A stretch of DNA of 39,479 nt. Source: Clostridiaceae bacterium (GTDB lineage Bacteria; Bacillota; Clostridia; Saccharofermentanales; DTU023). Each line of letters opens with the position of its first letter. Positions within the stretch are counted from its first letter, which is position 1. Made by a program: the position numbers and the translations under genes. Positions 6,677 through 39,479 of the stretch are shown here, piece after piece. The stretch lies in NCBI GenBank assembly GCA_012519085.1, contig JAAYQX010000009.1:1-39479 (forward strand), in the 5' to 3' direction. Below the pieces are notes generated by a model. The model was not told where the DNA came from. It saw nothing but the letters and a program-made list of their open reading frames with translations, and searched no databases.

Positions 6677-7502
6677 GCAAATGGATAAAACAACAGAAAA
6701 AGCACCCAGACCAAATAATCAAACATCCGTGTTTGTACAGAGAAAACGCACATTTACCTTGGCATTTCTTGGCGTGGCTGCGCTTTTTGTGGTATCCGCC
6801 GTTGTCACCAATTATGAAATCATTGGTGGTCTGGAATCGATTCCCAAAGCTGTCATCTGGATGGCCCAACATTTTGTTCCTAATGCCAAGGCATGGTCAA
6901 GACTCCCTTATATACTTTCCAAATTAGTAGAAACCGCGCTTGTATCGGTAGCTGTCACTGTGTGTGCTGCCATATGTGCGTTCTTCTTTAGTTTACTAGG
7001 AACAAAAACTACGAGAACGGCTCCCTGGATTGCAAGAATAGTCAGGATTATTGCAGCGTTTTTCAGAAATGTACCGGATGTAGTCTGGGCCATACTTTTG
7101 TTATTCTCTTTTGGCCAAAATATCCTAACAGGATTTTTTGCCTTATTTTTTTCCACTTTCGGTATGTTGACGCGGACATTTATTGAAACCATAGATGAGG
7201 TCAGCGCATCCTGTGTGGAAGCACTGTATGCCACGGGCGCTACCTCACTTCAAACAGTATTTAACGGTGTCATCCCCTCGTCACTGCCCGAAATAGTTTC
7301 CTGGGTTTTGTATATGATCGAAACAAATATCCGTTCATCTACATTGATCGGCATACTTACGGCAACAGGAATTGGCTATTTGTTCGATCTTTACTACAAG
7401 CGTATGGATTACAGTTCAGCAAGCCTCGTCGTCATTTCTATTGTGATACTGGTTATCGCTATAGAGATACTGTCGAATAAAATCAGAAAGGTGATTATGT
7501 AA
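6666..7502 (+). CDS. phnE: Phosphonate ABC transporter permease (first copy)
   Basis: An integral membrane permease of the PhnE family, 278 residues. About six membrane helices follow a polar N-terminus of about 28 residues. The EAA loop that contacts PhnC reads VEALYATGATSLQTVF...IPSSLPE (about 184-210). The FFRNVPDVVWAILL stretch (about 132-145) is a PhnE hallmark. ATG 6666 overlaps phnC; a second ATG at 6681 is possible. The stop and the start of the next permease share one base (TAATG), so the two permeases are translationally coupled. They most likely form a heterodimeric channel. Confidence 0.93.
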   Translation: MSSKQMDKTTEKAPRPNNQTSVFVQRKRTFTLAFLGVAALFVVSAVVTNYEIIGGLESIPKAVIWMAQHFVPNAKAWSRLPYILSKLVETALVSVAVTVCAAICAFFFSLLGTKTTRTAPWIARIVRIIAAFFRNVPDVVWAILLLFSFGQNILTGFFALFFSTFGMLTRTFIETIDEVSASCVEALYATGATSLQTVFNGVIPSSLPEIVSWVLYMIETNIRSSTLIGILTATGIGYLFDLYYKRMDYSSASLVVISIVILVIAIEILSNKIRKVIM

Positions 7503-8371
7503 TGAGTGAGCTTGATATCGCGGGCCAGCCTCCTGTTTCTTTGGATATAGTCAAATATATGCGAAAGACTCGCGGTGGCAAAATCAAAACGGCAACCAAA
7601 TCGAAAAGCAATCGCGCCATTAAAATAACGCTATTTGTCTTGCTGGCTCTTACCATATATGGTTTTTTAACCTTTGATTATAAAAACGTCGACATAGCGA
7701 AAGCCATGGCCGGCACTTGGAACAATGTCAAAGTATTATTCGGTCAACCGAAGTTGACATACGGCACTTGGGGCGGATCATTAAAGGCATTGTTTGTGAC
7801 ATTTTCTCTCGGTGCACTTGCTACTATTTTTGGAGCGATAATAGCTTTTTTCGGCTCCTTGCTGTGCGCTAAGAATATCGCTAATCCATATGTAGCCAAT
7901 ATTACAAAGAGCTTCGTTGCCTTTATAAGGGCAGTGCCGACAATATTGTGGGTCTTGATTTTTACAGTTGCAGCGGGTCTAGGCAGTGTTGCAGCCGTTA
8001 TTGGCTTGACTTTCCACAGTGCCGGTTACTTGATCAAAGCATATGCCGAATCCATCGAAGAGATGGACGAAGGTACTATCGAGGCCTTAAAAGCCAGTGG
8101 CGCGAGTTTCTGGCAAATTGTGTTTCAAGCTATTCTCCCTTCCTCTATCAGCCGCATGACAGCATGGACATTCCTGCGTTTTGAAATAAATTTTACCAAT
8201 GCGCTGGCCGTGGGTGCGGCAGCAGGAGTGGGCGGTATCGGCTTTGATTTGTACATGGCCGGCAACCATTACTTTGATCTTCGCGAGCTGGGATACATCA
8301 CATATATTGTCGTGGCCGCGGTGATTCTGCTGGAAATGATAGCGACCAAAATAAAAGCGACTGTGAGATAA
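7502..8371 (+). CDS. phnE: Phosphonate ABC transporter permease (second copy)
   Basis: The second PhnE-type permease, 289 residues, with a longer polar N-terminal tail (about 1-38) before the first helix. The family stretch FIRAVPTILWVLIF (about 141-154) and an EAA loop IEALKASGASFWQIVF...LPSSIS (about 193-217) are clear. It differs strongly from the first copy outside these motifs, so the pair is old and probably specialised rather than a recent duplication. PhnCDE systems with two permeases are known in Firmicutes. It starts within the stop codon of the preceding gene. A 44-base gap separates it from the dehydrogenase gene. Confidence 0.93.
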   Translation: MSELDIAGQPPVSLDIVKYMRKTRGGKIKTATKSKSNRAIKITLFVLLALTIYGFLTFDYKNVDIAKAMAGTWNNVKVLFGQPKLTYGTWGGSLKALFVTFSLGALATIFGAIIAFFGSLLCAKNIANPYVANITKSFVAFIRAVPTILWVLIFTVAAGLGSVAAVIGLTFHSAGYLIKAYAESIEEMDEGTIEALKASGASFWQIVFQAILPSSISRMTAWTFLRFEINFTNALAVGAAAGVGGIGFDLYMAGNHYFDLRELGYITYIVVAAVILLEMIATKIKATVR

Positions 8372-8415: not shown

Positions 8416-9408
8416 ATGCAACAAACTTTTTATGATTTTTCAGCATTTGAATTATTAAAAGATAAAAAACCGTTATTGGTGTGTGATGATGCCTTTGATT
8501 CATTTGGTATTGAGTTTCCTTGTGAAGTTACCAGATTCAGTGCTTTCACTTCCAATCCGGATTATGAGGATATAAAGTCAGGAGTAAAAGTTTTAAGAAA
8601 GAACAAATGTGACTTTATTGTAGCCATTGGCGGCGGGAGCAGCATCGACACCGCCAAGAGTATTAAGTACTACAATCATATCAATCTGCCTCTAATGGCT
8701 GTCCCTACAACTTCCGGCACCGGCAGCGAAGCAACTCACTTTGCTGTCATATATAGAAATGGTAAAAAACAATCCATTGCCGATAAAAGACTCTTGCCGG
8801 AATATGTTATTTTACAAGCCGACACGCTCAAAACACTGCCCTTGTATCAAAAAAAGTGCACCATGCTTGATGCACTCTGCCAGGCAATTGAGTCTTGGTG
8901 GTCAAAAAAAGCAACGCAAGAAAGTATTCTATATTCCCAAAAAGCCATCTATCTGATTCTCAGTAATATGGAAAGCTATTTGCATAACGATAATGATGGC
9001 AATACTAAGATGCTTGTTGCTGCCAATTTAGCAGGTAAAGCGATCAATATCACTACTACAACCGCACCCCATGCTATGAGCTATAAGCTAACCTCTCTTT
9101 ATGGGCTGCCGCATGGCCATGCTGTTGCTATCTGCCTGCCCAAAGTATGGCGGTACATGGAGAATTTTGATTACATCGCAAAGGCGCTGGGCACAGAACA
9201 TTATGAAGATGCAGTTTCGCTTTTTGAGGAAATGCTGTTAGAACTGGAAATCTTGCCACCTCAAAATATAAATGAGGACGATTTAGATATCCTGACCAAT
9301 TCGGTAAATCGTCAAAGACTAAGCAACAATCCGGTTAGACTTAATAAAAGCACCATAAAAAAATTATATAAAGAGATTTTGGAGATTGCAGATGGCGAAG
9401 AAAATTAA
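8416..9408 (+). CDS. Iron-type alcohol dehydrogenase, probable phosphonoacetaldehyde reductase family
   Basis: A 330-residue member of the iron-containing alcohol dehydrogenase family, resembling the phosphonoacetaldehyde reductase (PhpC-like) group. The dinucleotide-binding GGGSSIDTAK lies at 72-81 and PTTSGTGSEAT at 97-107. Of the four usual metal ligands, Asp152 (LDAL), His219 (PHAMSY) and His233 (LPHGH) are present. The second position, normally His in DALxHAIE, is Gln156 in DALCQAIE. The substrate is likely phosphonoacetaldehyde/2-hydroxyethylphosphonate, or acetaldehyde released by the neighbouring PhnX domain; the sequence does not decide. The protein is shorter than typical members (about 380). 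The gene overlaps the PhnX-PhnW gene by 17 bases and is the fifth gene of the phosphonate operon. Confidence 0.8.
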   Translation: MQQTFYDFSAFELLKDKKPLLVCDDAFDSFGIEFPCEVTRFSAFTSNPDYEDIKSGVKVLRKNKCDFIVAIGGGSSIDTAKSIKYYNHINLPLMAVPTTSGTGSEATHFAVIYRNGKKQSIADKRLLPEYVILQADTLKTLPLYQKKCTMLDALCQAIESWWSKKATQESILYSQKAIYLILSNMESYLHNDNDGNTKMLVAANLAGKAINITTTTAPHAMSYKLTSLYGLPHGHAVAICLPKVWRYMENFDYIAKALGTEHYEDAVSLFEEMLLELEILPPQNINEDDLDILTNSVNRQRLSNNPVRLNKSTIKKLYKEILEIADGEEN

Positions 9409-11233
9409 AGCAGTAATTTTCGATTGGGCCGGAACCACAGTAGACTATGGCTGTTTCGCACCGGTAAAAGGCTTTATAGATGGGTTTAACAGTATCGGTA
9501 TAGATATTACCAATGAAATGGCGCGCAAGCCGATGGGCTTATTGAAGATCGACCATACCCGGGCGATTGCCGCCATGTTACCGGATCCGATTTCCGAAGA
9601 ACAAATTTTACAGGCCTATGAAGTATTTGAGAAAACTCTCTTTACTAATATTGAACAGCACTGCGATATTAAGGACTATGTTGCAGAAACAGTTGCTGCT
9701 CTGCGGGAGCAAGGAATCCAAATCGGTTCCACTACAGGATACACAGCCGCTATGATGGAGCGCGTCTTGCCCAAAGCTAAGGAGAATGGATTTTCTCCCG
9801 ATTTCTGTATCAGCGCCGACCAGGTTGCCAAAGGCAGGCCGTACCCGTACATGATCTGGAATAATCTCATGCAATTCGGCATTTCGGATCCGCGGGAAGC
9901 CATAAAAGTCGGGGATACAGTCGCTGATATAGCAGAGGGTAAAAATGCCGGTTGTTGGACTGCAGGTGTCATTATGGGCTCGTCGGAACTCGGACTTACA
10001 CGCGATGAAGTTGCCGCTTTATCAGAAGAGGAGTTGAAAGAGCGCACAGCCATTGTTCGCGCGGCGTATTACAAGGCCGGGGCTGATTATATAATTGAAG
10101 ATATGAACGAACTTTTAGCTGTTATTGCTGATATAAACCGAAAACTGGATCAAAATGCTGCTCGGATTTTATTGACACCAGGTCCGCTGACAACACGCCA
10201 TTCCGTGAAGCATGCCATGCTTACCGATCATTGCACCTGGGATGATACATATAAAGCGATCACAACTTCTGTGCTGGACGATATTACGTATATTTCTGCC
10301 AACAATGATTATGCTACCGTTTTATTGCAAGGCAGCGGTTCATATGCGGTAGAAGCCATGATCAATAGTCTGTGCGGGGAAAACGAAAAAATCTTGTTTT
10401 TAGTGAACGGCGAGTATGGCAGACGGATGTTAACTATTGCCGATAATTCGGGCAAGGATTATGAATGTTTAGTATTTGACATGACCCGGCCGATAGATGT
10501 TTCAGTGGTTAAAGAAAGATTAAAAAAAGACCCAAACATTGCTGTGGTTGTATTCGTTCATTGCGAAACCACAACCGGTATTATGAATCCTCTGGCAGAT
10601 TTGACAAAGCTCGCTAAATCATATGGCGCGAAGGTTTTTGTCGATGCCATGTCCAGCTTTGCAGCTTATGAGATCGATATGCCGGGCCTTGATATTGATG
10701 CACTGGCGGCAAGTTCCAACAAGTGTCTGGAAGGATTGCCCGGGCTGGCTTTTGTCATAGCGAAGAAAACGCTGATAGAGGAGAGTTGCGGCAATTCTGT
10801 ATCCCACAGTCTTGACCTGTTTGATCAATATCAAGGTCTATATGCGGGCGGCGGCAAGTTCCGCTTTACCTCGCCGACCAATGTCTTGCTGGCTCTGAGA
10901 CAGGCTATTGTCGAATATAAGAAAGAAGGCGGACTGATAGCCCGCAGAGAGCGCTATATGGAAAATAATGAAATTCTGGTGCGAGGACTCGAAAAACTTG
11001 GTATCCGACCCATAATCGCACCTGAAAATCAATCGTATATCATTACAACCTTTGAATTGGGGAATCTTAATTTCGCCAAATTGTACGAAGCGCTTAAGTC
11101 CAATGGATTTATTATCTATCCCGGCAAACTAACCTCAATGCCAACATTCAGATTGGGTAATATCGGCAATGTATATCCCGAGGATATGATTGCGCTTGTA
11201 GCTGCCATAGAAGAATGTATCTGTGAGACGTAG
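9392..11233 (+). CDS. Fused phosphonoacetaldehyde hydrolase - 2-aminoethylphosphonate transaminase (PhnX-PhnW)
   Basis: One 613-residue polypeptide carries both enzymes of 2-aminoethylphosphonate breakdown. Residues 1 to about 250 are a HAD-family phosphonatase: nucleophile Asp11 in FDWAGTT, Schiff-base Lys52 in MGLLKIDH, and the KVGDTVADI acidic motif (173-181). Residues about 259-613 are the class V aminotransferase PhnW, opening with LLTPGPLTT and carrying the PLP lysine at 445 in SSNKCLEG. The transaminase converts 2-aminoethylphosphonate and pyruvate to phosphonoacetaldehyde and alanine; the hydrolase releases acetaldehyde and phosphate. Both halves keep their catalytic residues. ATG 9392 is preferred over TTG 9386 because GGAG (9381-9384) is seven bases upstream. 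No convincing terminator lies in the 152-base convergent gap to murE. Confidence 0.93.
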   Translation: MAKKIKAVIFDWAGTTVDYGCFAPVKGFIDGFNSIGIDITNEMARKPMGLLKIDHTRAIAAMLPDPISEEQILQAYEVFEKTLFTNIEQHCDIKDYVAETVAALREQGIQIGSTTGYTAAMMERVLPKAKENGFSPDFCISADQVAKGRPYPYMIWNNLMQFGISDPREAIKVGDTVADIAEGKNAGCWTAGVIMGSSELGLTRDEVAALSEEELKERTAIVRAAYYKAGADYIIEDMNELLAVIADINRKLDQNAARILLTPGPLTTRHSVKHAMLTDHCTWDDTYKAITTSVLDDITYISANNDYATVLLQGSGSYAVEAMINSLCGENEKILFLVNGEYGRRMLTIADNSGKDYECLVFDMTRPIDVSVVKERLKKDPNIAVVVFVHCETTTGIMNPLADLTKLAKSYGAKVFVDAMSSFAAYEIDMPGLDIDALAASSNKCLEGLPGLAFVIAKKTLIEESCGNSVSHSLDLFDQYQGLYAGGGKFRFTSPTNVLLALRQAIVEYKKEGGLIARRERYMENNEILVRGLEKLGIRPIIAPENQSYIITTFELGNLNFAKLYEALKSNGFIIYPGKLTSMPTFRLGNIGNVYPEDMIALVAAIEECICET

Positions 11234-27240: not shown

Positions 27241-29448
27241 ATGTATAATATTTCTGCAGATCGTTTTATCAATACCTGGAGCACCAAAAGCCCTGCGGTG
27301 CTGGAGTTTTTACCGGCCAGGTTTCTGGTTGTGCCGGGAGCTTACAGTTTCGCCACCAGCGAATATACCGAATTCCCTTTTTCCGACCGCATCAAATTAT
27401 ATGAACATGATCATGAGGCTCGTTATCTGCGTCTGACCATGGAGCATGCAGGTACGGTTCTGCAGTTGCAGTATTGGAAACAAGATCCCTGGACCGTACG
27501 GGGCAGGCTGGAGGTCTTGGCGCATGGCGAGTGGGGGCTGCGGTTTATGACTACCCTGGCTTTCGGTTTTGCCGAGAGCGGCACAGTTCAAAGAACAAAT
27601 GACGGTTTTGATCTGAGCTACCGCAGCTATCATTTCGGTGTCGCTTTTGCCGACAGACCGGTCCGCGCCTGTCTGGCTCAAACCAGTTCCTATATGGGCC
27701 GGGAAATGGAAAAGAACGGTTATTATGCCCCTTTCACCGATGCTACCGATCCCTTGTATCTCAATACTACTTTCAATCTGGAAGAGACACCGGTACTTGA
27801 TTTTGCTCTGGCCGTGACCAATCATCCGCAGACTGCCGCCGACAAGGCTGCTGCCGCTTTGCAATTGTCAGAGGACGATTTATCCGACATTAAGTCTAAT
27901 CTTAATCAAGCCCTGGCCATGGAGGGCCGTTTTGCCAGTTGTGCCGCTGCCTTGCGCGATGTCATGTCCTGGAATGCGATTGCCGACCATGTTAACAGCA
28001 GAGTGTTTACTTCTCTGACCCGTTTCTGGATCGATAAAAAGTTTGGCGGCTGGTTCCTCTGGCTGGATGATGTTTTCTATCATGCCTTGATCTCAGCCTG
28101 GTCCGGCGACTGGCAGATGGCGGAGAACAATCTGAAAGCGGCGATGGGCAATGCGGTTCCGGCCGGCAATCTGGCCTGCCTGATGTCCGAATTTACCGAA
28201 TGGGTTGATCGTTCCCAGCCGCCGGTATTCAGCTTCATGGTCTGGAAATACTATCAGCTGACACATGATCTAAACTTGCTGGCTCGGGTCTTTCCCACTT
28301 TGCTGGCCGCTCATAACTGGTGGTTCGCCCATCGCGACGGCAATGGGAACGGTGTACTCGAACTGGGTAGCTCCGCTCTCTGCGGTGACGGTCATTTCAA
28401 ACAGACGAAATTGGCTTGCAAAGACGAAGCGGCGATGGACAACAGCCCGATGTATGATCCGGCGGTCTTTGTGCCGCAGGCCGGCACCATGGACATGGAG
28501 GATATCGCGCTTAACAGTCTGCTGGTTCTGAACGCGGAAGCTCTGGCCCGGATTGCAAAAACACTGGGTCACTATGAGATTGCTACCGATCTGTTAGACA
28601 GACGCGAGCAACATAAAGAGAGGATCAATCAGCGCCTCTGGGATGAGGAGCGCGGGCTCTATGCCAATCGCCTCTGGAGCGGTGAATTTGTCAGTCCGTC
28701 GCCCACCAGCTTTTATCCTCTGGCCGCCGGCATCCCGGATCGGGAGCAGGCCGATATTCTGATCCGCCATATCTTTGACGAAGACGAATTCTGGACCAAG
28801 GCGCCTTTGCCCTCAATCTGGGCCAAAGACGAGGCCGTTCATGACGATGTCTACTGGCGTGGCCGCATGTGGCCGCCCTTGAATTTCTTTACTTATGTCG
28901 GCCTGCAGCGCTATGGCTATGAGGTGGAAGCACAGCGGCTGGCGGCCAGAAATGCTGAAGTTTTTACTAATGCCTTCGATAATGAAAGAGCTTGTTACGA
29001 GAACTACAATACTTTCACCGCTGTCGGTAAGAGTGTCGATGCCGATCCTTTCTATGGCTGGGGTGCGCTCCTGCCTCTGATGTGGGTAATGAATTTCGTG
29101 GACAGCAGTGACGAAGGCCTCGACTTCGGCGCCGTCGATAATGAAGCGATGGAGCTAAAACAGCTCAGAACGCATCAAGGGACTTTTGATCTGTCGCTGG
29201 GCGCCACAACAGAGGTTCGCTTGAACGGCGAAACGGTCTTTGTCTCCAATGCCTCAGGTCGCTTCAGGGATTTCAGGATGCAGGACAATTATGCATCTGT
29301 GATTGTGCCGGCGCAGCAAAGCGATGTCTATGTGGATTTCCCTCAGCTGGAACCTTTGCTGGTCAGAATTAACGGTACCGAGATCGAAGCTGCGAGCAAA
29401 CTGCAACTATCAGCCGGCGAGGAGCAGAATATTGAGCTCTGGTTCTGA
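27241..29448 (+). CDS. GH63/MGH1-like glycoside hydrolase
   Basis: A 735-residue protein with a beta-rich N-terminal part (about 1-195), an (alpha/alpha)6 catalytic domain like that of GH63 and mannosylglycerate hydrolase (MGH1) enzymes (about 225-640), and a small beta-rich C-terminus. Likely catalytic acids lie in FLWLDDVFYH (Asp276/277), in EAAMDNSPMYD (Asp400) and in the late ENYNTF...DPFYGWGALLPL block. No signal peptide is present, so it works on an imported or internal glycoside. GAGGAG sits six bases before ATG 27241, 24 bases after potA. The context suggests it releases a sugar for the kinase encoded next. The exact substrate is unknown. Confidence 0.82.
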   Translation: MYNISADRFINTWSTKSPAVLEFLPARFLVVPGAYSFATSEYTEFPFSDRIKLYEHDHEARYLRLTMEHAGTVLQLQYWKQDPWTVRGRLEVLAHGEWGLRFMTTLAFGFAESGTVQRTNDGFDLSYRSYHFGVAFADRPVRACLAQTSSYMGREMEKNGYYAPFTDATDPLYLNTTFNLEETPVLDFALAVTNHPQTAADKAAAALQLSEDDLSDIKSNLNQALAMEGRFASCAAALRDVMSWNAIADHVNSRVFTSLTRFWIDKKFGGWFLWLDDVFYHALISAWSGDWQMAENNLKAAMGNAVPAGNLACLMSEFTEWVDRSQPPVFSFMVWKYYQLTHDLNLLARVFPTLLAAHNWWFAHRDGNGNGVLELGSSALCGDGHFKQTKLACKDEAAMDNSPMYDPAVFVPQAGTMDMEDIALNSLLVLNAEALARIAKTLGHYEIATDLLDRREQHKERINQRLWDEERGLYANRLWSGEFVSPSPTSFYPLAAGIPDREQADILIRHIFDEDEFWTKAPLPSIWAKDEAVHDDVYWRGRMWPPLNFFTYVGLQRYGYEVEAQRLAARNAEVFTNAFDNERACYENYNTFTAVGKSVDADPFYGWGALLPLMWVMNFVDSSDEGLDFGAVDNEAMELKQLRTHQGTFDLSLGATTEVRLNGETVFVSNASGRFRDFRMQDNYASVIVPAQQSDVYVDFPQLEPLLVRINGTEIEAASKLQLSAGEEQNIELWF

Positions 29449-29548
29449 GCATCTGCTGTCGGAGATTAGAGTGGGTATTGTCGATTGTTTAATGATTTGG
29501 ATGGTTGAGCAATTTGCTGTACCTGGATATTGGATAAGTGAGTAGATC

Positions 29549-30487
29549 GTGCGTGTTATTAATCTGGGATCTTTGAATCTGGACTACAGCTATCGCGTGC
29601 CGCGCTTTGTGCGTCCCGGTGAAACTATGGAGGCCGACAGTTTCTCACTCAAGGCTGGCGGCAAAGGTCTAAACCAATCCATCGCCGCTGCTAAAGCAGG
29701 ACTTGAAGTTTACCAGGCGGGATGTGTCGGGCCGGATAGCGCCCTGCTGTTTGAGGAGCTGGAACAAAACGGTGTGGATACTTCGCTGATTCAGACCGGT
29801 GCGGATGCTACCGGTCATGCCATCATCCAGGTCACCGCCAGCGGGGAAAACAGCATTTTGATCTACGGCGGCGCCAATCGGACTTTAACCCTAGAGTATA
29901 TTAACAGCGTACTGGCGCATTTTGCGCCCGGTGATGTCTTGCTGCTCCAAAATGAAATTAATCTCGTACCGGAGATTATATTGGAGGCTGACCGCCGCGG
30001 CCTGAGGATTGCTTTCAATGCGGCGCCGCTGACTTCTGATGTCAAGACATACCCGCTGGATAAGCTGAGCTGGCTGATGGTCAATGAAGTAGAAGGTGAG
30101 GCTCTCACCGGCGAAACGGATCATCTCGCCATCATTAAGCAGTTGAGATTAAGCTATCCGCAGACAATGCCGGTTTTAACTGTCGGTGCTGCCGGCGCTC
30201 TGGCCGCGGATAGCGAAAATATTTACACTCTGTCCGCCTATCCGCTGCAGCCCGTGGATACTACGGCGGCAGGCGATACCTTCAACGGTTATTTTCTCAG
30301 TGCGGTCCTGGCAGATTATCCCTTACCGAAGGCGCTGGAGCTCGGTACAGCCGCCAGTGCTCTCTGCGTGTTAAATCAGGGTGCAGCTGTCTCGGTTCCC
30401 CGGCGGGAGCAGGTGCTGGCTTTCATGCAGGAGAACCCCCCTGCCACATTAACGGCTGAAGTAATACCGTTCCCCATCCGAGGTTAG
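29549..30487 (+). CDS. PfkB-family (ribokinase-like) sugar kinase
   Basis: A 312-residue ATP-dependent kinase of the PfkB family. The sugar-binding signature AGGKGLNQS lies at 36-44, and the C-terminal signature DTTAAGDTFNGYF carries the catalytic base Asp243. The NEVEGEALTG motif (about 179-188) supports ribokinase-type binding. Substrate could be ribose or another free sugar; the 23-residue tail after the kinase core ends in a short hydrophobic/proline stretch. The start is GTG with a weak ribosome site, 100 bases after the glycosidase gene. It ends four bases before the CXXC microprotein gene. Confidence 0.88.
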   Translation: MRVINLGSLNLDYSYRVPRFVRPGETMEADSFSLKAGGKGLNQSIAAAKAGLEVYQAGCVGPDSALLFEELEQNGVDTSLIQTGADATGHAIIQVTASGENSILIYGGANRTLTLEYINSVLAHFAPGDVLLLQNEINLVPEIILEADRRGLRIAFNAAPLTSDVKTYPLDKLSWLMVNEVEGEALTGETDHLAIIKQLRLSYPQTMPVLTVGAAGALAADSENIYTLSAYPLQPVDTTAAGDTFNGYFLSAVLADYPLPKALELGTAASALCVLNQGAAVSVPRREQVLAFMQENPPATLTAEVIPFPIRG

Positions 30488-30491
30488 AACA

Positions 30492-30659
30492 ATGAAACCA
30501 CAGAAGACAAAATCAGCAGCGCTCAGGATTTGGCTGCTCCGAGTGATTATCTTGGCTCTGGCGATTGTTGGCATCATAGTCGGCATCAAGCGCCGGGAAG
30601 TAAGAACCGTGTTTAGTAAGGCGATCCGTATTTGCCTGGAATGCATTGGCTTGGGTTAG
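30492..30659 (+). CDS. CD1871A-family CXXC-motif membrane microprotein
   Basis: A 55-residue protein, shorter than most gene finders accept. A basic N-terminus (KPQKTKSAALR) leads into one hydrophobic helix (about 13-33). It is followed by the family's C-terminal tail, SKAIRICLECIGLG, with CLEC as the CXXC pair. This matches the CD1871A-type proteins of Clostridia, whose function is not established. The tail would sit at a membrane face and could pass electrons or bind a metal. ATG 30492 lies four bases after the kinase stop; the TAG is followed within 12 bases by the ATG of the polyferredoxin gene. This close pairing suggests that the two proteins work together. Confidence 0.88.
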   Translation: MKPQKTKSAALRIWLLRVIILALAIVGIIVGIKRREVRTVFSKAIRICLECIGLG

Positions 30660-30671
30660 GTGGTGCAGCTG

Positions 30672-31589
30672 ATGGCCAAGCAAAAGCGTAAAATTAAGCT
30701 CAAGAAAAGACATCTGATCCAGGCACTGGGTGCCCTGGCTCTGAACGGGCAGCTCAGCGGTTTTGTGACGGGCAATATCTACACCGGTGCCGGCAAACAA
30801 ATCTGTCTGCCGGTGCTTAATTGCTACTCTTGTCCCGGAGCACTTACTTCCTGCCCTATTGGCTCACTGCAGGCTGTTGCCAATCATCCCGGCTTCAGCT
30901 TTAGTTACTATATTATGGGCCTAATCGCCTTATTCGGTATTTTGGCCGGGAGATTCTACTGTGGTTGGCTCTGTCCTTTTGGCTTTCTGCAAGATTTATT
31001 GGCCAAAATAAGTAAAAGAAAGCTGCGGGTCAAAGTCAAGTATGACCGACTTCTGCGTTACTTAAAATATATTATTTTGATTTTCTTGGTTTTGCTCCTG
31101 CCGGCAGTACTGACCAATTCCTACGGAATCGGATCACCTCTGTTTTGTAAATATATTTGTCCGTCCGGTACACTGGGAGCCGGCTTGCCGCTCCTCCTGC
31201 TGACGCCTGCTCTGCGGCCGAATGCAGGGATGCTCCTGGTCTGGAAAGTGCTCTTGGCTCTGGCTATCGTCTTGGTCTGCATATACATAACCCGCGCTTT
31301 CTGCCGCTATGCCTGTCCTTTGGGAGCGCTGCTCGGTCTGCTGCAGATTGTCAGCTTCTATCGTTTTTCTTACAACAAGGATAGCTGCATTTCTTGCCGG
31401 CAGTGCCTAAAGGTCTGCCCGATGGGAATAGATCCGATGGCAACGCCGAACAGCCCGGAATGTATCCGTTGCCGTGATTGCATACATGTCTGCCCGACTA
31501 CCTCGCTGACTAGCAGCCTGGCGGGCAAAACTTTGCCGAAAGAGATATTGTTCGTGGGCGGGAAGTCGGGTCAATCCGACCCTGCCTGA
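30672..31589 (+). CDS. Membrane polyferredoxin-type 4Fe-4S protein (NapH/CcoG-like)
   Basis: A 305-residue membrane protein with about five helices and many cysteines. Cys motifs include NCYSCPGALTSCPIG near the N-terminus, then YCGWLCPFG, CKYICPSG and CRYACPLG at helix ends. A C-terminal two-cluster ferredoxin domain follows (CISCRQCLKVCPMG and CIRCRDCIHVCP). Such proteins move electrons across or along the membrane. ATG 30672 is favoured because AGGTGG (30658-30663) is eight bases upstream; a GTG at 30660 is also possible. Residues after the last cluster are not conserved. The preceding CXXC microprotein gene is the only close partner. A weak GGAG/CTCC hairpin follows the stop. Confidence 0.9.
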   Translation: MAKQKRKIKLKKRHLIQALGALALNGQLSGFVTGNIYTGAGKQICLPVLNCYSCPGALTSCPIGSLQAVANHPGFSFSYYIMGLIALFGILAGRFYCGWLCPFGFLQDLLAKISKRKLRVKVKYDRLLRYLKYIILIFLVLLLPAVLTNSYGIGSPLFCKYICPSGTLGAGLPLLLLTPALRPNAGMLLVWKVLLALAIVLVCIYITRAFCRYACPLGALLGLLQIVSFYRFSYNKDSCISCRQCLKVCPMGIDPMATPNSPECIRCRDCIHVCPTTSLTSSLAGKTLPKEILFVGGKSGQSDPA

Positions 31590-31631
31590 TGCTCCCCGCG
31601 ACCGGAGATGCCGGCTCCATTTTGTAGGCGC

Positions 31632-31666
31632 CTTCGCAAACAGACTCCGCAAACTTCGCAAACAGA
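31632..31666. repeat. 13-bp direct repeats upstream of the EF-G-like promoter
   Basis: CTTCGCAAACAGA occurs at 31632-31644 and 31654-31666, 22 bases apart (two helical turns), with a partial CCGCAAAC copy between them. The second copy ends 13 bases before the -35 at 31680, a typical activator-site position. Confidence 0.6.
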
Positions 31667-31679
31667 TTACGGCCGCTTA

Positions 31680-31708
31680 TTGCTGAAATCTTGCTCTGAC
31701 TATATAAT
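31680..31708 (+). promoter_or_regulatory. Strong sigma-A promoter of the EF-G-like gene
   Basis: TTGCTG (31680-31685) and a perfect TATAAT (31703-31708) with a 17-base spacer. The leader would be about 70 nt before ATG 31786. Confidence 0.7.
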
Positions 31709-31785
31709 ATTATTCGCATGTTTAATCGGGGAAGTATTCAGCGACCCCTTTTTGACAATAATTAATACATTACTGGGGGTTAGCA

Positions 31786-33867
31786 ATGAGACAATATCAA
31801 GCAGCGGACATCAGAAATATTGCACTGGCAGGTCACGGCGGGGCCGGTAAGACAGCCTTTGTCGAGGCGGCTTTGCAGGCGACCGGTGTGGTTGACCGTA
31901 TGGGGCGCAGTGACGAAGGAACAGCTGCCATGGACTTTGATGCCGAGGAAATGCGCCGCGGTATGACGATCAATCTGTCCTATGCCGCAATCGAGTGGAA
32001 GGACAAGAAGATCAATCTACTTGACACACCGGGTGATTTCGATTTCCTCGGCGAGCAGATACAGGGTTTCAGGGTCAGTGATGCTGTTCTGATTGTTATG
32101 AGCGGCAAGGATGGGCTGGCTGTCGGCGTGGAGAAAGCGGTCCGCCAGGCCGGTAAGCAGAAGCGGCCGGTGAGCTTTTTTGTCAACCGCCTGGATGAGC
32201 CTCATGCCAGCTTTGATCAGACTCTTGCTGCGTTGCAGGAGGCCTATGGCAGTAAAGTAGTGCCTCTGGCTTTGCCCATAGTCGAGGGTGAAGATGTGCT
32301 CGGTCTGGTCGATGTTATCGGACGGCAGGCTTTTAAATTCGCCGCCAAGGGCAAGATGGAAAAGATGGATGTGCCGGCTGCTTTGGCCGATCGGATGGCA
32401 GAATACTATGACCAGCTTCAGGAGCAGATCGCTGAGTGTGATGAAGATCTGATGATGAAATATTTCGAGGGCGAGCCTTTTACGGCGGAGGAGCAAAACT
32501 ATGGCTTGCGCCAGGCTATCCTGACCGGCTCTATCTGGCCTGTGTTTGCCGGAGCTGCGCAGAGCAATCTGGGTGTAACTTTCGCTTTGGATGCGATCGC
32601 CGACTATCTGCCGTCACCGCTGGATACACCCCCTGTATTGAGCTCATTCCATGGTGAAGAACAAGAGATTGCCATCGATCCGGACAGCAATCTGGCAGCG
32701 TATATTTTTAAGACGATTGTTGATCCTTTTGTCGGCAAGATCTCTCTGTTTAAGGTCTACCAGGGCGTATTCCCCAGCACGGGCACAGTCTATAACAGTT
32801 CTAAGGAGCTGGATGAGCGTGTTAACGGTCTGTCCTACCTGATTGGCAAGAAACAGATTCCGGCTGATAGCGGGATTGTGGCCGGCGATATCGGCTCTGT
32901 TACCAAATTGGGCGACAGTACGACCAATGATACGCTGTGTGAGCGCAGTCATAAGGTAAGGATCGTGCCGCCTGTGATGCCTCGCGCCTCTTTGACTTTA
33001 GCTATCTTGCCGGTTACTAAGGGCGAGGAAGATAAGATTGTGCAGGGCCTGACCAGACTGGCTGATGAGGATACCGTCTTTACTATTGAGAATAATCCGG
33101 AGACCAAACAGCTGCTCTTGTCCGGTTTGGGCGAGATCCAGCTGGATGTGCTGACCAATAAGCTTAAAAATAAATACAATGTCGAGTCGACTCTGGAAGA
33201 ACCGCGGGTGGCCTATCGTGAGACTATTCGCAAGCAGGTCAGAGTACAGGGTCGCCATAAGAAACAAACCGGCGGGCACGGCCAGTTCGGAGATGTCTGG
33301 ATTGTCTTTGAACCCAGTGAATCCGACGGGCTTGAGTTTGAAGAGCAGATTGTCGGCGGTGTTGTGCCGAAAGGTTATTTCCCCGCCGTTGAAAAAGGAC
33401 TGCTGGAAGCGATCGAAGAGGGTCCGCTGGCCAATTATCCGGTTGTAGGTCTCAAGGCTACCTTGGTCGATGGCTCCTACCATGCCGTTGATTCCAATGA
33501 GATGTCATTTAAGTTGGCAGCCAGATTGGCCTACAGAGCAGGTATGCCACAGGCCAATCCCGTTCTACTCGAGCCGATCAGCAAGCTGTCAGTCCATATT
33601 CCTGATGATTATCTGGGTGATGTTATGGGCGATATGAATAAGCGCCGCGGGCGTATCCTGGGCATTAATCCCGATCCCGAAGAACTGGGTTATCAGATTG
33701 TTGAGGCGGAAGCTCCGACTTCGGAGATACTGCGTTACTCGACTGATCTCAAATCCATGACGCAGGGCCGGGGCTGGTACAATATCGAATTCGCCCGTTA
33801 TGAGCAAGCACCTCAGCCTGTAGCCGATAAGATTATAGCTGAGGCGCAGCGCGAGGAAGAAGAGTAA
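31786..33867 (+). CDS. EF-G-like translational GTPase (paralogue, not canonical FusA)
   Basis: A 693-residue protein with the five-domain EF-G layout. The P-loop is GHGGAGKT (16-23), where canonical EF-G has GHIDAGKT. The RRGMTI switch, DTPGDFDF (G3) and NRLDEP (G4, usually NKMDRP) motifs follow. Domain IV starts near 480, with GRHKKQTGGHGQFGDVWI and a LEPISKLSVHIPDDYLGDVMGDMNKRRGRI end block. These variants place it in the EF-G-like group found beside true EF-G in many bacteria. Its role is not well defined; suggested roles are ribosome recycling, stress or loss of GTPase-driven translocation. It has its own strong promoter. GGGGGTT sits six bases before the ATG. Confidence 0.9.
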   Translation: MRQYQAADIRNIALAGHGGAGKTAFVEAALQATGVVDRMGRSDEGTAAMDFDAEEMRRGMTINLSYAAIEWKDKKINLLDTPGDFDFLGEQIQGFRVSDAVLIVMSGKDGLAVGVEKAVRQAGKQKRPVSFFVNRLDEPHASFDQTLAALQEAYGSKVVPLALPIVEGEDVLGLVDVIGRQAFKFAAKGKMEKMDVPAALADRMAEYYDQLQEQIAECDEDLMMKYFEGEPFTAEEQNYGLRQAILTGSIWPVFAGAAQSNLGVTFALDAIADYLPSPLDTPPVLSSFHGEEQEIAIDPDSNLAAYIFKTIVDPFVGKISLFKVYQGVFPSTGTVYNSSKELDERVNGLSYLIGKKQIPADSGIVAGDIGSVTKLGDSTTNDTLCERSHKVRIVPPVMPRASLTLAILPVTKGEEDKIVQGLTRLADEDTVFTIENNPETKQLLLSGLGEIQLDVLTNKLKNKYNVESTLEEPRVAYRETIRKQVRVQGRHKKQTGGHGQFGDVWIVFEPSESDGLEFEEQIVGGVVPKGYFPAVEKGLLEAIEEGPLANYPVVGLKATLVDGSYHAVDSNEMSFKLAARLAYRAGMPQANPVLLEPISKLSVHIPDDYLGDVMGDMNKRRGRILGINPDPEELGYQIVEAEAPTSEILRYSTDLKSMTQGRGWYNIEFARYEQAPQPVADKIIAEAQREEEE

Positions 33868-33870
33868 TAA

Positions 33871-33886
33871 CCGGCTGCCAAGCCGG
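33871..33886. other. Short perfect hairpin after the EF-G-like gene
   Basis: CCGGCT (33871-33876) pairs with AGCCGG (33881-33886) around GCCA. It starts four bases after the stop codon and has no T run, so it could slow decay of the upstream message but is unlikely to terminate. Confidence 0.4.
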
Positions 33887-33916
33887 GATTACCAATGTGT
33901 TTTAAAAGGAGTTTGA

Positions 33917-35290
33917 GTGGCAGAAGTAGTTCTTTCTGGCCCCGGGGGTGAACCCCGATTACCGACGGCACTGATTTTTCCAGGCAGCTGGCAACTTATC
34001 GTGTTGCCCTGCCTGTTTCTTATTATTTATGCTTTCTTTGCGGCTTTCGAAGCCGGAGTAGCTGCGCTTGATGACCATGCGCTGGAGGAAAAAGCGGAGA
34101 GCGGCTCTTTGTCGGGCAAATTACTGCTCAAGGAAACCAAGATGCCGGGCCGTTTTATCGGCCGAATCCACGCAGCACGCATTGTTTATCTTGCTCTATA
34201 TGCTATCGTCACTGCTGACGGTATCTTAAGAGGTCTGATGCCGCAATTGTCTGCTTTTCCCGGTATCGGTCGTTTTTTGCTGGTGTTGGCTCTAATGGTT
34301 CTGTCCTTTCTTTTGCTCTATGTCCTGGGCGATCTGCTGGCCAAACAGCAGGGCCGGTCAAAAGCGGAGACTGTTTCCTATCGAGGGATTTATCTGTACC
34401 AAATTCTCATTTTGCCCATATTGCCTCTATCGACGCTGGGGGTTGTCGTTGGTTCTGCACTGAGCAAGCTCTTTAAGCTGGAAGATATGGAGATTGTGGC
34501 CGCGGCGACAGAAGAAGACTTGAGAATGATGCTGAGCGCCAGTAAAGAAGCGGGGCATATTGAAGAGCAAGATCGGGATCTGATCGAGAATATCTTTGAT
34601 TTCGATGAGAAGAATGCGGCGGATATTATGACACACCGCACCGATATCTCCGCCTTCGCCGTAACTGATACCTATGATCAGGTAATGGAGCTAATCACAG
34701 ATGATCAATACACTCGCTACCCGGTTTATGATGATTCGATCGACAATATAGTCGGCTTCGTGCATGTTAAGGATATCCTGAGCTGGATCTATGAGCATAA
34801 GGATGAAACATTCAATCTGACACAGCTGATGCGCAAACCGTCGTTTACTCCGGAAAGCAGGAATCTGAGGGATTTGTTTCAGGAAATGCAGCACAGTAGA
34901 GCGCAGATGGCGGTGGTGATTGACGAATATGGGGGCACGGCCGGCCTGGTCACCTTGGAGGATATCGTTGAAGAAATCGTCGGTGAAATCGAAGACGAAT
35001 ACGATGAGGAAGAGATCCCCATTGTTCGTTTGACAGAGAACAGTTGGATGTTGCAAGGAACGACGGAACTGGAAGATGTCGAGGAAGCCTGCGGGCTGGT
35101 GCTGCCGAAAGAAGACTTTGACACGGTGGCCGGTATGATCATCGGTCATCTCGATCGCATTCCGGAGGAGGGAGAGAATCCGGAGATTGTGGTCAACCGC
35201 GGCAAGTTCCGGGTCGAGTCAGTGCAGGATAATCGCATCACTGTGGTGCATTTGAAGGTCATGCCGGAAAAACCTTTGCCGGCAGAATAA
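33917..35290 (+). CDS. CorC/HlyC-family membrane protein with DUF21 and CBS domains
   Basis: A 457-residue protein of the CNNM/CorC group, linked to magnesium (and cobalt) homeostasis. The DUF21 membrane domain covers about 15-190, with about four helices. A tandem CBS (Bateman) pair lies at about 210-330 and should bind adenine nucleotides. The CorC_HlyC transporter-associated domain is at about 365-450. The motifs VIDEYGGTAGLVTLEDIVEEIVGEI and TVAGMIIGHLDRIPEEGE are characteristic. The start is GTG with AAAAGGAG five bases upstream. The older name hemolysin does not describe its function. Confidence 0.93.
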   Translation: MAEVVLSGPGGEPRLPTALIFPGSWQLIVLPCLFLIIYAFFAAFEAGVAALDDHALEEKAESGSLSGKLLLKETKMPGRFIGRIHAARIVYLALYAIVTADGILRGLMPQLSAFPGIGRFLLVLALMVLSFLLLYVLGDLLAKQQGRSKAETVSYRGIYLYQILILPILPLSTLGVVVGSALSKLFKLEDMEIVAAATEEDLRMMLSASKEAGHIEEQDRDLIENIFDFDEKNAADIMTHRTDISAFAVTDTYDQVMELITDDQYTRYPVYDDSIDNIVGFVHVKDILSWIYEHKDETFNLTQLMRKPSFTPESRNLRDLFQEMQHSRAQMAVVIDEYGGTAGLVTLEDIVEEIVGEIEDEYDEEEIPIVRLTENSWMLQGTTELEDVEEACGLVLPKEDFDTVAGMIIGHLDRIPEEGENPEIVVNRGKFRVESVQDNRITVVHLKVMPEKPLPAE

Positions 35291-35293
35291 ATC

Positions 35294-35302
35294 TGTTATA
35301 AT
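35294..35302 (+). promoter_or_regulatory. Extended -10 promoter of the parvulin gene
   Basis: TGTTATAAT (35294-35302) is a perfect TGn-extended -10, placed just after the stop of the CorC-like gene, with TTTGCC 16 bases upstream as a weak -35. The leader would be about 65 nt. Confidence 0.6.
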
Positions 35303-35376
35303 ATACTTTCGTATTCAGAACATAATATTAATATCAATGCTGTGTCCCTTAGGACGCAGTTCGTGTTGAGGGAAAA

Positions 35377-37020
35377 ATGAGCAGAAAAAAAACAGAGACC
35401 TGGAAGACAGATATCGCCCGTCAGGAGCGCAAGGAAAGGCTGGCCAGCCAGAAAGACAGCTCCGGTCAGAAGAAGCGCATTCGAGGATATAGTTTAACCG
35501 GCAGGATTATCGGCATTGCAATAGCTCTTGTCATCATTTTGTCCCTGGCAGTCTGGGCTCTATCTGCGACGGGCCTGATGCAGCGCTGGGTCACAGCGGC
35601 AAAGATTGGGGAGACCAGGCTTTCAGTGGCTGATGTCAATACTGTCTTCGGCTTTCAGGCTGTGAGTCCCAGTCGCTGGAATCTAGGCAATGTTTTTACC
35701 GACGCCGGTCAACAATTGCTGGAGAATGAGTTGTCTTTTGGCGAAGAAGGATTGAATAATTACCGCGACCATATTAGGAAATATTCTCTGGACGAATGGA
35801 AAGCCACTCTGGCACTTTATGAAGAGGGCCAAAGAAACGGCTTTGTCATGTCGGATGAAAAAAGCCAGGCCATGGAAGCCAGTATTGAGCAATTTAGGGC
35901 ATCGATCGAACAGCAAGCTGCCCAGTATCAAATTACGGTGCCGGTGCTGTTGAAATCTACATATGGGCCGGGCAGCCGCTTTGCCGAAATTGAGAACTAC
36001 CTCAAAATCAGCTTCTATGCAGAAGCCTATCTCAGTGACTATTCGCAGAATATCGATATTACTGAAACGGAAATGGAAGAGGCATATCAAGAGAGCAAAG
36101 ACATGTACGATATGGTTTCCTATCATGCGGTGACCTTTATTTCTGAATATCCGGAGCAAGTGACTGATGAGGTGAAGGAAACTGTTGAGAGTCATACTGC
36201 GGCTTTAGCCAATAAAATGAAAGATGATCTCGCAGCAGGCCAGGATTTCTTCGTTGCTGCGCTTGAACATATGGAGGATACCGAGACCAAGAAGCTGCTG
36301 TCTGAGGAGCCTGCTGCATTTATCCATCAGTATCGAACAATCAATAATATTAAAGATACGGAGCTAAGAACTTGGCTGTTTGAAGAGGGACGTCAAGCCG
36401 GGGAGACGACTGTTATTGAATCGACCTCAGAAGGCACTGCCAACCCGAATCAGGAAGCCGACACAGCGGATCAAACCACTCCCACAGAGTATAAGAGTTA
36501 TACCGTGGTCAAATTTGACGGTCGTTCACGCCAGAATGTAAAACCCTTTACCACCAGGCATATCCTTTTTTCAGCTGAAGATGACGAAACAATCACGGAT
36601 GCTAAACTCAAGGAAGAAGCTGAATTAGTGCTGGCCGAATATAATCGGGGTGACAAAACGGAAGAAGCCTTTGCCGAATTGGCCAAAAAACACAGCAAGG
36701 ACAGCAATGCGGCTGAGGGTGGCCTATATGAGAAAACCAAATTGGGTCAGTTCGTGGAAGAATATGAAACTTGGGCACTGGATCCTGCACGTCAAGAGGG
36801 CGATGTAGGCCTTGTCAAAACGCAGTTCGGCTATCATCTGATCTATTATATTGGTTCTGAAGGCGAGGAAGCCTGGAAAGACGCTACGGGCGAAAAGATT
36901 TTGACCGCCAAGATTGCTGAATGGCGCGAAGCACTGGAACAGGCAATATCTTATAAGGAAAGTTCTTTCGGCACTAATATGGTAGGGAAAATCGGCTTAT
37001 TTAAGATCTTGTTCGGCTGA
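35377..37020 (+). CDS. Membrane-anchored parvulin-type peptidyl-prolyl isomerase (PrsA/SurA-like)
   Basis: A 547-residue extracytoplasmic folding factor. A basic cytoplasmic segment (1-42) precedes one signal-anchor helix (43-66). A helical SurA_N-like region follows (about 75-385). The parvulin domain covers about 392-493, starting TTRHILFSAEDDE and closing VKTQFGYHLIYYIG. No lipobox is present, unlike classical PrsA. A low-complexity Thr/Ala/Gln/Asp stretch (about 343-371) separates the helical part from the isomerase domain. GAGGG precedes ATG 35377. It has its own promoter and no co-directional gene within 300 bases downstream. It likely helps fold exported proteins such as the nearby prepilin-like protein, but that link is only positional. 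Confidence 0.88.
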   Translation: MSRKKTETWKTDIARQERKERLASQKDSSGQKKRIRGYSLTGRIIGIAIALVIILSLAVWALSATGLMQRWVTAAKIGETRLSVADVNTVFGFQAVSPSRWNLGNVFTDAGQQLLENELSFGEEGLNNYRDHIRKYSLDEWKATLALYEEGQRNGFVMSDEKSQAMEASIEQFRASIEQQAAQYQITVPVLLKSTYGPGSRFAEIENYLKISFYAEAYLSDYSQNIDITETEMEEAYQESKDMYDMVSYHAVTFISEYPEQVTDEVKETVESHTAALANKMKDDLAAGQDFFVAALEHMEDTETKKLLSEEPAAFIHQYRTINNIKDTELRTWLFEEGRQAGETTVIESTSEGTANPNQEADTADQTTPTEYKSYTVVKFDGRSRQNVKPFTTRHILFSAEDDETITDAKLKEEAELVLAEYNRGDKTEEAFAELAKKHSKDSNAAEGGLYEKTKLGQFVEEYETWALDPARQEGDVGLVKTQFGYHLIYYIGSEGEEAWKDATGEKILTAKIAEWREALEQAISYKESSFGTNMVGKIGLFKILFG

Positions 37021-37214: not shown

Positions 37215-37243
37215 ATGACAGACCAGTTGCAATATTTTATAAT
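37215..37243 (+). promoter_or_regulatory. Strong sigma-A promoter of the prepilin-like gene
   Basis: ATGACA (37215-37220) and TATAAT (37238-37243) with an exact 17-base spacer. Transcription would begin near 37250, leaving a leader of about 73 nt. Confidence 0.65.
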
Positions 37244-37322: not shown

Positions 37323-39479
37323 GTGAAAACAAGAATCAACAGCCAATTAAAAAATAAAAAAGGTTTAACACTGATTCAAACACTCATCGTTATTGCGATA
37401 GTAGTGATTCTTCTCGGTGTTGCATTTATTGGCGTCCAAAGCTTGGTTAACCGTATAAAGCAAACTAAACTGGATAACATCGCTCAGAGCATGTACGTAA
37501 GCGCACAGAACAGAATCTGGGAGTTAAAAGCATCGGGAGAAATAGACAGTCTGTTGGAGCACGAAGAGCTAACAGCGGTAGTTAACCAGCCGGCCGATTG
37601 GGGGGAAGTTGATCCTGATGATGATTCTGAGGAGGCGGTAAAATATAGTGATTTAAAGTATTTTTATCATAATAAAGACGATTCTGCTTCAAGCGACCTT
37701 GTAGATTTCATTTTTCCTCAAGGCAGTATCTCCGAGGATGTACTTGATGATAATTGGGTAATCGAACTTGACCCTGTTACCGGGTATGTCTATGCGGCCT
37801 TCTACTCGGAAACCAGATCGGCTAAGGATTTTTATATTGATAACACTGACACATTGGACCAAAGCGGTACCTCCTCGATAAGGTTCAAGGATTTCAGGCA
37901 TAGCCTAAAAGGAAACGATAAGATAGGCTACTATGGCGGCAAGGCAAATATGCCTGCGGATGCCAACGGCTATATAATCCACGCATCAATGAATGTCATT
38001 AATGCGGATATTTTGGAAGTTAGGATGAACGCAATTATTCCTCTTGTTGAAGGGGTTACAAGCGATCTTGAATTTAAGCTTACAGTTAAGGGGAAAATAA
38101 GTAATAATACAGTAACTCTCACGCCGGACGTCAGCTTTGTGGATATAGTAACAGCTAGGGAGTTTTCTGCGGCAGTTATACTGGATAAGCTTGCAGACGG
38201 TCAAAACTTCAAAGCCACTTTCGGTGATGCAAATTGGAAACCAATAAATTATGTAGAGTCGAGAACAGGAGCACTCACTCCGGGTGAAGACTTAGAACTA
38301 TCATTCACTGTCTCAAGCAGCGATGACAGGGTTTTAGACATTGATCCGATAGAAAGAACTGCAAACAGTTTATTCGCCTCATTAAACCAGGCTGAACCGA
38401 CGGAAGCCAATATAGCTTATGGCAGACATCTCCAGAATTTGGATAACTCAACCTCCGGTTTGCCTGCAGGTGCGATTACTGCCGCCAAACAGATTTCGGA
38501 TATAGATTTTAACGATGAATCCTATAAAGACTTGCCTGTCGAAAAACCATTCCTCTGGAAGTCACTTTACGGAGACAAGACATTCACACCGATTAATAAC
38601 CCGAGCTTAAACAAATATTCGGGCTATATTGACGTGCCGTCGGCAACTGATTCATTCAAAATATTGAATATGCATATCGCCGGCAATAATAAACCGGCTG
38701 GATTATTCGGGGATTTCGCAGGAGATGAGATTTCCGGCCTTACCATGGTTAACACAAAGATAGAAGGCGGCACGAATGTAGGCGGCCTGGCGGGAACAAC
38801 CAACTCCAGCCTTACGATAAAAGACTGCAGACTTTATGTTGAAAGAGATTATTTTGCAACCGGAAGCACATATGCAGATAATATCTTATTTAAAGGCACT
38901 ACCAATGTCGGCGGACTCGTAGGAAGTTCGACTGGCGATATAACAATTAAAGACAGCTTTGCTGCAACAATAATCGAGGGAATGGGCTCGATTGGCGGTC
39001 TGATAGGCAAAGCAAGCGGCAATGCTCAGATACAGGACTCTTATGCCGACTCGTACCTGATCGGAGGCGCATCGACCTCCAAGATAGGCGGACTGGCAGG
39101 TGAACTTGCTGCCGGATCCTCTATTTCAGGCTCATACTCCGCAGGTTTCGCAATAATAAAAAATACTGTAACCGAAGAAAAAATTGCTGCGGCAGCGGGT
39201 TTTGTTCCCAACGGCATTTCAAGCGTAACCAATTCCTATTCGCTCTTTAACTGTTCCGAGTCCAAGGCGACTGATATATACAGTACCGTGCCATCCGCAA
39301 CAACGGTAACCAATGTCTACTATTTCGGAGGCGGAGAAACTGTGCTGGCCGGTTCGCTCGAATATAATTTCACATCTAATGAGGAGGCAGCTGCCCAATT
39401 TATCGGAAGTAATTTTTCGGACGACAACAACGAGTATGACAGCTATCCCTATAATCAAAAAACTGACCTTGAGCCTCAG
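37323..39479 (+). CDS. Prepilin-like surface protein with GLUG-type repeats (3' end beyond the window)
   Basis: An open frame of 719 codons runs to the window edge without a stop. GTG 37323 has GGAGG six bases upstream. The N-terminus is a type IV prepilin signal: basic leader, cleavage after Gly14, then LTLIQTLIVIAIVVILLGVAF. The usual Glu at mature position 5 is Gln19, a change seen in some minor pilins. Residues about 50-450 are an unrecognised, mostly polar region. From about 487 there are repeats with GGL[AVI]G cores (codons 487, 530, 558, 589), each followed by an I-x-DSY/DCR-like strand, resembling GLUG motifs of surface adhesins. It is probably exported by a pilin-type system and serves adhesion; no pilus assembly gene is in the window. 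Codon choice is richer in ATA, AAA and TTA than the preceding gene. Confidence 0.8.
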   Translation, partial: MKTRINSQLKNKKGLTLIQTLIVIAIVVILLGVAFIGVQSLVNRIKQTKLDNIAQSMYVSAQNRIWELKASGEIDSLLEHEELTAVVNQPADWGEVDPDDDSEEAVKYSDLKYFYHNKDDSASSDLVDFIFPQGSISEDVLDDNWVIELDPVTGYVYAAFYSETRSAKDFYIDNTDTLDQSGTSSIRFKDFRHSLKGNDKIGYYGGKANMPADANGYIIHASMNVINADILEVRMNAIIPLVEGVTSDLEFKLTVKGKISNNTVTLTPDVSFVDIVTAREFSAAVILDKLADGQNFKATFGDANWKPINYVESRTGALTPGEDLELSFTVSSSDDRVLDIDPIERTANSLFASLNQAEPTEANIAYGRHLQNLDNSTSGLPAGAITAAKQISDIDFNDESYKDLPVEKPFLWKSLYGDKTFTPINNPSLNKYSGYIDVPSATDSFKILNMHIAGNNKPAGLFGDFAGDEISGLTMVNTKIEGGTNVGGLAGTTNSSLTIKDCRLYVERDYFATGSTYADNILFKGTTNVGGLVGSSTGDITIKDSFAATIIEGMGSIGGLIGKASGNAQIQDSYADSYLIGGASTSKIGGLAGELAAGSSISGSYSAGFAIIKNTVTEEKIAAAAGFVPNGISSVTNSYSLFNCSESKATDIYSTVPSATTVTNVYYFGGGETVLAGSLEYNFTSNEEAAAQFIGSNFSDDNNEYDSYPYNQKTDLEPQ

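Follow-up and report, generated by a model that had tools for sequence, protein, structure and literature searches.

The window, a stretch of 39,479 nucleotides analysed at its full length, is the whole of contig C45 of a draft genome (G000; 1.58 Mb, 62 contigs, 92% complete). Its right-hand end holds the first 719 codons of a very large prepilin gene, here called the giant, which opens with GTG at 37323 just after a ribosome-binding-like GGAGG stretch (read by eye) and runs free of stops as far as 39479. Because the window is a complete contig, the gene loses its 3' end to a break in the assembly. Comparison of the first ~440 codons with four relatives gives dN/dS 0.19-0.33, which shows purifying selection on the frame. 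A promoter scan of the region, by consensus match only, found 4 sites where 1.5 were expected. The features at this end of the window are as follows.

35377 to 37020, forward strand: PPIC-type PPIase gene (Pfam Rotamase), bounding the inferred pilus island on the left
37215 to 37243, forward strand: promoter-like site ATGACA-17-TATAAT, 5' of the giant gene (consensus scan only)
37323 to 39479, forward strand: giant modular prepilin gene, 5' 719 codons (open frame; the contig end cuts the gene)
37323 to 37364, forward strand: prepilin leader peptide VKTRINSQLKNKKG, read from the sequence, with a predicted cut after Gly14 (N_methyl below the Pfam cut-off)
37365 to 37535, forward strand: mature alpha-1 helix, residues 15-71 (from the sequence; helix at 17-71 in the model)
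37536 to 38669, forward strand: putative pilin neck or head plus unrecognised region, ~380 residues (relatives' alignment; no Pfam match)
38670 to 39389, forward strand: predicted GLUG-type right-handed beta-helix (Pfam GLUG, E 1e-7; model strands; structure alignment)

Elsewhere in the window, positions 9386-11233 encode, downstream of genes at 5906-8371 that look by eye like those of an ABC transporter, a 615-residue protein in which Pfam recognises a HAD hydrolase joined to a class-V aminotransferase. We take this protein to resemble a PhnX-PhnW fusion for aminoethylphosphonate.

The leader reads NKKG/LTLIQTLIVIAIVVILL, the slash marking the cut, and the prepilin site is therefore G/LTLIQ, with Gln (codon CAA at 37377-37379) as mature residue 5. 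The features of a class III signal peptide are present, namely a basic leader, Gly at -1 and then a hydrophobic helix. At 14.7 bits the Pfam N_methyl match falls short of its cut-off (21.2); among relatives it is also too low in L043 and passes in L042 and L040. Glu5, a typical but not defining mark of pilins, is lacking in the window protein. The initial annotation had described a prepilin signal with Gln5 in a very long frame still open at codon 719, and both descriptions hold for the frame at 37323-39479.

Residues 1-449 of the window protein align with its relatives at 66-71% identity, and no Pfam family matches residues ~40-450, in agreement with the roughly 400 unrecognised residues reported at first. 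Behind this pilin part lies a domain that is not specific to type IV pili, the predicted GLUG beta-helix. Pfam GLUG scores 32.3 bits (cut-off 20.5) over four stretches, and the motif GG[LIVF]xG starts at residues 487, 530, 558 and 589 (nt 38781, 38910, 38994 and 39087), four occurrences against a mean of 0.12 and a maximum of 3 in 5,000 shuffles of the protein. The "at least four" GGLxG repeats of the initial annotation are thus located. Structure prediction, which had been proposed as a check, assigns to the GLUG region a right-handed beta-helix similar to the one in IgA1 proteases. The AlphaFold2 model was built from three sequences and has a mean pLDDT of 44.6, with low confidence outside the beta-helix, where it predicts a helix at residues 17-71 followed, where the globular head of a pilin would be expected, by strands at 112-116, 144-150 and 155-162 (block pLDDT ~57-75); in the GLUG region pLDDT reaches up to 85 (blocks of ten). 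VIA-align places IgA1-protease beta-helices over model residues ~410-700 at Z 14.9-16.5, the next match being an unrelated beta-helix at Z 9.6. Foldseek on the same model returns no match below E 0.001; its top hit is again an IgA1 protease, at 0.007, and the VIA alignment of these same matches is the stronger evidence. A sequence search of solved structures recovers geopilin helices only (E 0.008-0.02), and the same search using the C-terminal part of a giant yields no match. A model of the C-terminal part of the giant from the metagenome-assembled genome (MAG) L040 had a mean pLDDT of 29.5 and was discarded.

A beta-helix need not be an adhesin. The parallel beta-helix fold is also common among polysaccharide-cleaving enzymes and tailspikes (Z 7.4-9.6 against the model), and the beta-solenoid pilin ComZ is described as binding DNA (PMC6561018), so that the domain might instead serve at the tip chiefly as an enzyme, such as a polysaccharide lyase or hydrolase, or as a receptor for DNA uptake. 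We regard this as improbable: the IgA1-protease helices match well ahead of the enzymes, and neither the window part nor any of the six relatives scanned has a catalytic Pfam domain above cut-off.

Full-length relatives show what the contig end has removed. In the P0001 search, 10 of 59 genomes match at E 1e-3 or better, G000 included, and three others match strongly: G019 at 71% identity over residues 1-717, G027 and G021 at 68-77% over parts. Two MAGs add to these, L040 (JAAYNJ010000006.1; 71% identity) and L041 (DUPV01000072.1; a further match). The complete giants have 1,761 residues in G019, 2,122 in G027, 2,348 in G021 and 1,727 in L040. Order-wide and class-wide searches (188 and 391 genomes, with matches in 51 and 23, mostly ordinary pilins) contributed 12 more, of 1,891-3,779 residues; only frames longer than 1,700 residues were taken further, and the counts given here describe giants rather than all pilins. 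The complete relatives thus extend over 1,727-3,779 residues, and the full length of the window protein does lie beyond contig C45, as first supposed. Every one of the 16 complete giants carries GG[LIVF]xG motifs, 6-27 of them against shuffle means of 0.2-2.1. The GLUG region includes a tandem array of ~10 copies of a 93-base unit in G021 and of ~4 copies of an 87-base unit in G027 (arrays of 87-93-base units are seen at L044:12039-13007 and L043:13104-13477), whereas a tandem-repeat scan of the window gene finds no long array, so the number of GLUG units differs between relatives. Two second-family giants, L076 and L083, contain Listeria-Bacteroides repeats (Flg_new), six stretches each, the best of them near the protein ends.

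These relatives also bear on position 5. All 16 complete giants have Glu5 (that of G492 read by eye) and the window protein alone has Gln5, so Gln5 cannot explain the giant family; judged from the sequences, it would be either a change private to G000 or an error. The codon is GAA in G019, L040 and G021 and GAG in G027, which places CAA one base from the codon of three of the four close relatives, and the reading comes from a single draft contig. A sequencing or assembly error, or a first step of decay, would account for Gln5 only and would be compatible with a pilin function of the giant; it is nevertheless rather unlikely, given 719 open codons and the dN/dS of 0.19-0.33.

The genome of the window encodes its own pilus machinery. 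Contig C53 carries Pfam-supported genes for PilB, PilT, PilC, a 122-residue major pilin with Glu5, PilD (an A24 peptidase) and PilM, together with two genes in the places of PilN and PilO that are named by position only, the PilO-like one being cut by the contig end. The initial annotation had made its reading depend on pilus assembly genes somewhere in the genome, and had looked for pil genes and a prepilin peptidase; C53 supplies them, PilD included. Two more ATPase loci occur in G000. On C31 (L011:4463-8316) there is a Tad-like group, which includes an ATPase and a 74-residue Flp-like prepilin, and on C19 (L012:3838-7679) a second PilT-like, pilin-like and T2SSF-like set, which adjoins a 1,220-residue open frame running off the contig; both groups were recognised by eye except for the ATPases.

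In G019 the giant gene directly follows PilO. After it, on the same strand, come three genes for small prepilins, X, V and W, an arrangement found with 12 of the 16 complete giants (G019, G027, G021, L040, G040, G100, G123, G146, G472, G281, G492 and G271); the fetched stretches of the other four (G056, G121, G124 and G125) contain no X-V-W. X is without Glu5 in 12 of 12 cases (F, L, I or T instead), and V and W carry it in every one of them, some motifs, such as that of W in G472, being read by eye. The order giant-X-V-W, seen in 12 of 16, is a candidate for the arrangement of an HIJK-type tip complex (four minor pilins in one operon, K being the one without Glu5), with X, V and W as putative counterparts of K, I and J. 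Minor pilins without Glu5 are known, for example PilA of Streptococcus sanguinis (PMC9934059), and in known systems the subunit lacking Glu5 is reported to cap the tip complex (PMC9934059, PMC10191384). In G000, whose contig breaks inside the giant gene, the 3' part of the giant and X-V-W were not found: a search with the 1,761-residue relative gave a strong match to the window only, and the sole candidate paralogue, the C53 pilin, matched weakly.

This gene order bears on whether the giant enters a fibre at all. The prepilin helix might act simply as an anchor, holding a surface adhesin in the membrane that never joins the pilus. The very large ectodomain would fit such a protein, and loss of Glu5 would favour this fate in G000, since the pilins studied need Glu5 for efficient docking (PMC5207764, PMC10191384). 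The retention of Glu5 in all 16 complete relatives argues otherwise, as does the position of their giant genes amid minor pilins and core pil genes, and we consider the anchored form unlikely. The initial annotation's reasoning from Gln5 is likewise not supported: the relatives have Glu5, and the subunit of the cassette that lacks it is the neighbouring prepilin X.

The pilus set and the giant look like a horizontally acquired island between the PPIase gene and rpoB. PilC of G000 is 90% identical to that of G027, 89% to that of G021 and 87% to that of G019; the corresponding identities are 71%, 75% (386 residues only) and 76% for RpoB, and 47%, 47% and 72% for LeuRS. PilC matches at E 1e-30 in 8 of 37 genomes of family f1, and at 87% identity or more in 4 of 37 (G000 included), which are exactly the holders of the giant. 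The giant part has a G+C of 0.436 and PilB-O one of 0.444, against 0.48 for the remainder of the window. In the sister genome G003 (L089:570-6429) a locus collinear with window genes 27241-37020 has the PPIase gene 424 bases from rpoB, and so represents an empty site; the PPIase gene also adjoins rpoB in G027, where the pilus genes are elsewhere. (Contigs of G002 and G004 end near rpoB and stand outside this comparison.) In G000 the giant comes next after the PPIase gene, and C53 has a divergent PilB after rpoB. From the adjacency of PPIase and rpoB in G003 and G027 and these flanks in G000, the ends of C45 and C53 most likely face the same gap, making the contigs neighbours, and the giant cassette and PilB-PilO are most likely convergent in G000, as in G021 and G027. 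The parts of the putative island seen in G000 are the window end, 37323-39479, and C53 (L010:861-12769).

The giant is probably a minor type IV pilin of modular build, with a large adhesin that it would present at the tip. This reading is supported by the genome's own pilus machinery, the conserved gene order, an X without Glu5, the co-occurrence with PilC and the beta-helix match, and has precedents in PilB and PilC of S. sanguinis (PMC8179133, PMC9934059) and in ComZ (PMC6561018). Counting against it are Gln5, the sub-threshold N_methyl score, the lack of the 3' part and of X-V-W in G000, the 4 of 16 giants without X-V-W, and the low confidence of the model outside the beta-helix. We infer processing, tip location, adhesion and ligand. 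PilD would cleave the giant behind Gly14, the alpha-1 helix would then enter the membrane, and a type IVa-like pilus would take up the protein, along with X, V and W, as one of its first subunits, at or close to the tip. X may cap the tip complex with the giant beside it, the GLUG beta-helix and further domains would be exposed as an adhesin where the fibre ends, and PilB and PilT would extend and retract the fibre. Of the initial annotation's reading, the surface adhesin outside the ordinary fibre is supported by the architecture, the pilus machinery and the relatives' gene order; the argument from Gln5 is not.

The effect of Gln5 can be predicted from TcpB of Vibrio cholerae, if the published behaviour of its position-5 variants carries over. 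Those variants, E5Q included, still assemble pili but have impaired autoagglutination and secretion of TcpF; the E5V mutant was shown to have lost retraction (PMC5207764). By analogy, Gln5 should be tolerated if the giant enters first and should hinder its entry into a growing fibre, so that a Gln5 giant might start a pilus without readily being added later. The natural variant offers a test of whether Glu5 decides between first-only and later entry of a large minor pilin.

A broader proposal is more doubtful, and we put it forward tentatively: clostridial type IVa pili may have a widespread, undescribed tip module, a GLUG beta-helix adhesin of 1.7-3.8 thousand residues fused to a minor pilin, which would stand in for PilY1 in monoderms, move as an island along with the pilus genes and alter its reach or specificity as GLUG units are gained or lost, Gln5 making it a first subunit only, a dedicated initiator or cap, in G000. 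Should the giants be confirmed at the tip, they would reveal how an adhesin of such size is presented by monoderm pili that have no PilY1. A published census of modular pilins names a protein of 860 residues as its most extreme multi-domain case (PMC8179133); members of the giant family are 2-4 times that length and have a predicted beta-helix, a variable number of repeats and mostly the same X-V-W. No description of giant GLUG pilins was found among titles and abstract openings in the open-licence literature.

Several known systems resemble the giants in part. The IgA1 proteases (PDB 6xja, 7uvl and 3n6z) share the predicted fold and weak ZmpA and Peptidase_M26_N profile matches (PF05342, for the N-terminal region, matches below threshold in L043 alone among the three f1 relatives scanned); Pfam shows no metalloprotease domain in the incomplete window part or the three f1 relatives. 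In diderm type IVa pili, PilY1/PilC is a tip adhesin of very large size that a minor-pilin complex holds in place, but it is not a pilin, whereas the giant is itself a prepilin (PMC10191384, PMC7541494); PF05567 (PilY1) has no match in the 59 genomes, and since a control was also silent this is no proof of absence. TcpB and CofB are large minor pilins thought to start the pilus, but belong to type IVb systems; they are compared with the giant here by role (PMC5207764). ComZ of Thermus thermophilus is a pilin with a beta-solenoid and an argued tip site; it differs in having ~550 residues, a solenoid inside the pilin fold whose nearest relatives are ice-binding proteins, and the DNA-binding activity mentioned above (PMC6561018). 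PilB and PilC of S. sanguinis join a pilin moiety to a large foreign module, belong to a monoderm host, have a predicted tip location and are co-encoded with a minor pilin lacking Glu5 (PilA there, X here), yet are of ~50 kDa and bear vWA or lectin modules (PMC8179133, PMC9934059); the giants reach 1.7-3.8 thousand residues in the relatives, carry a predicted GLUG beta-helix and are mostly followed by three small prepilins.
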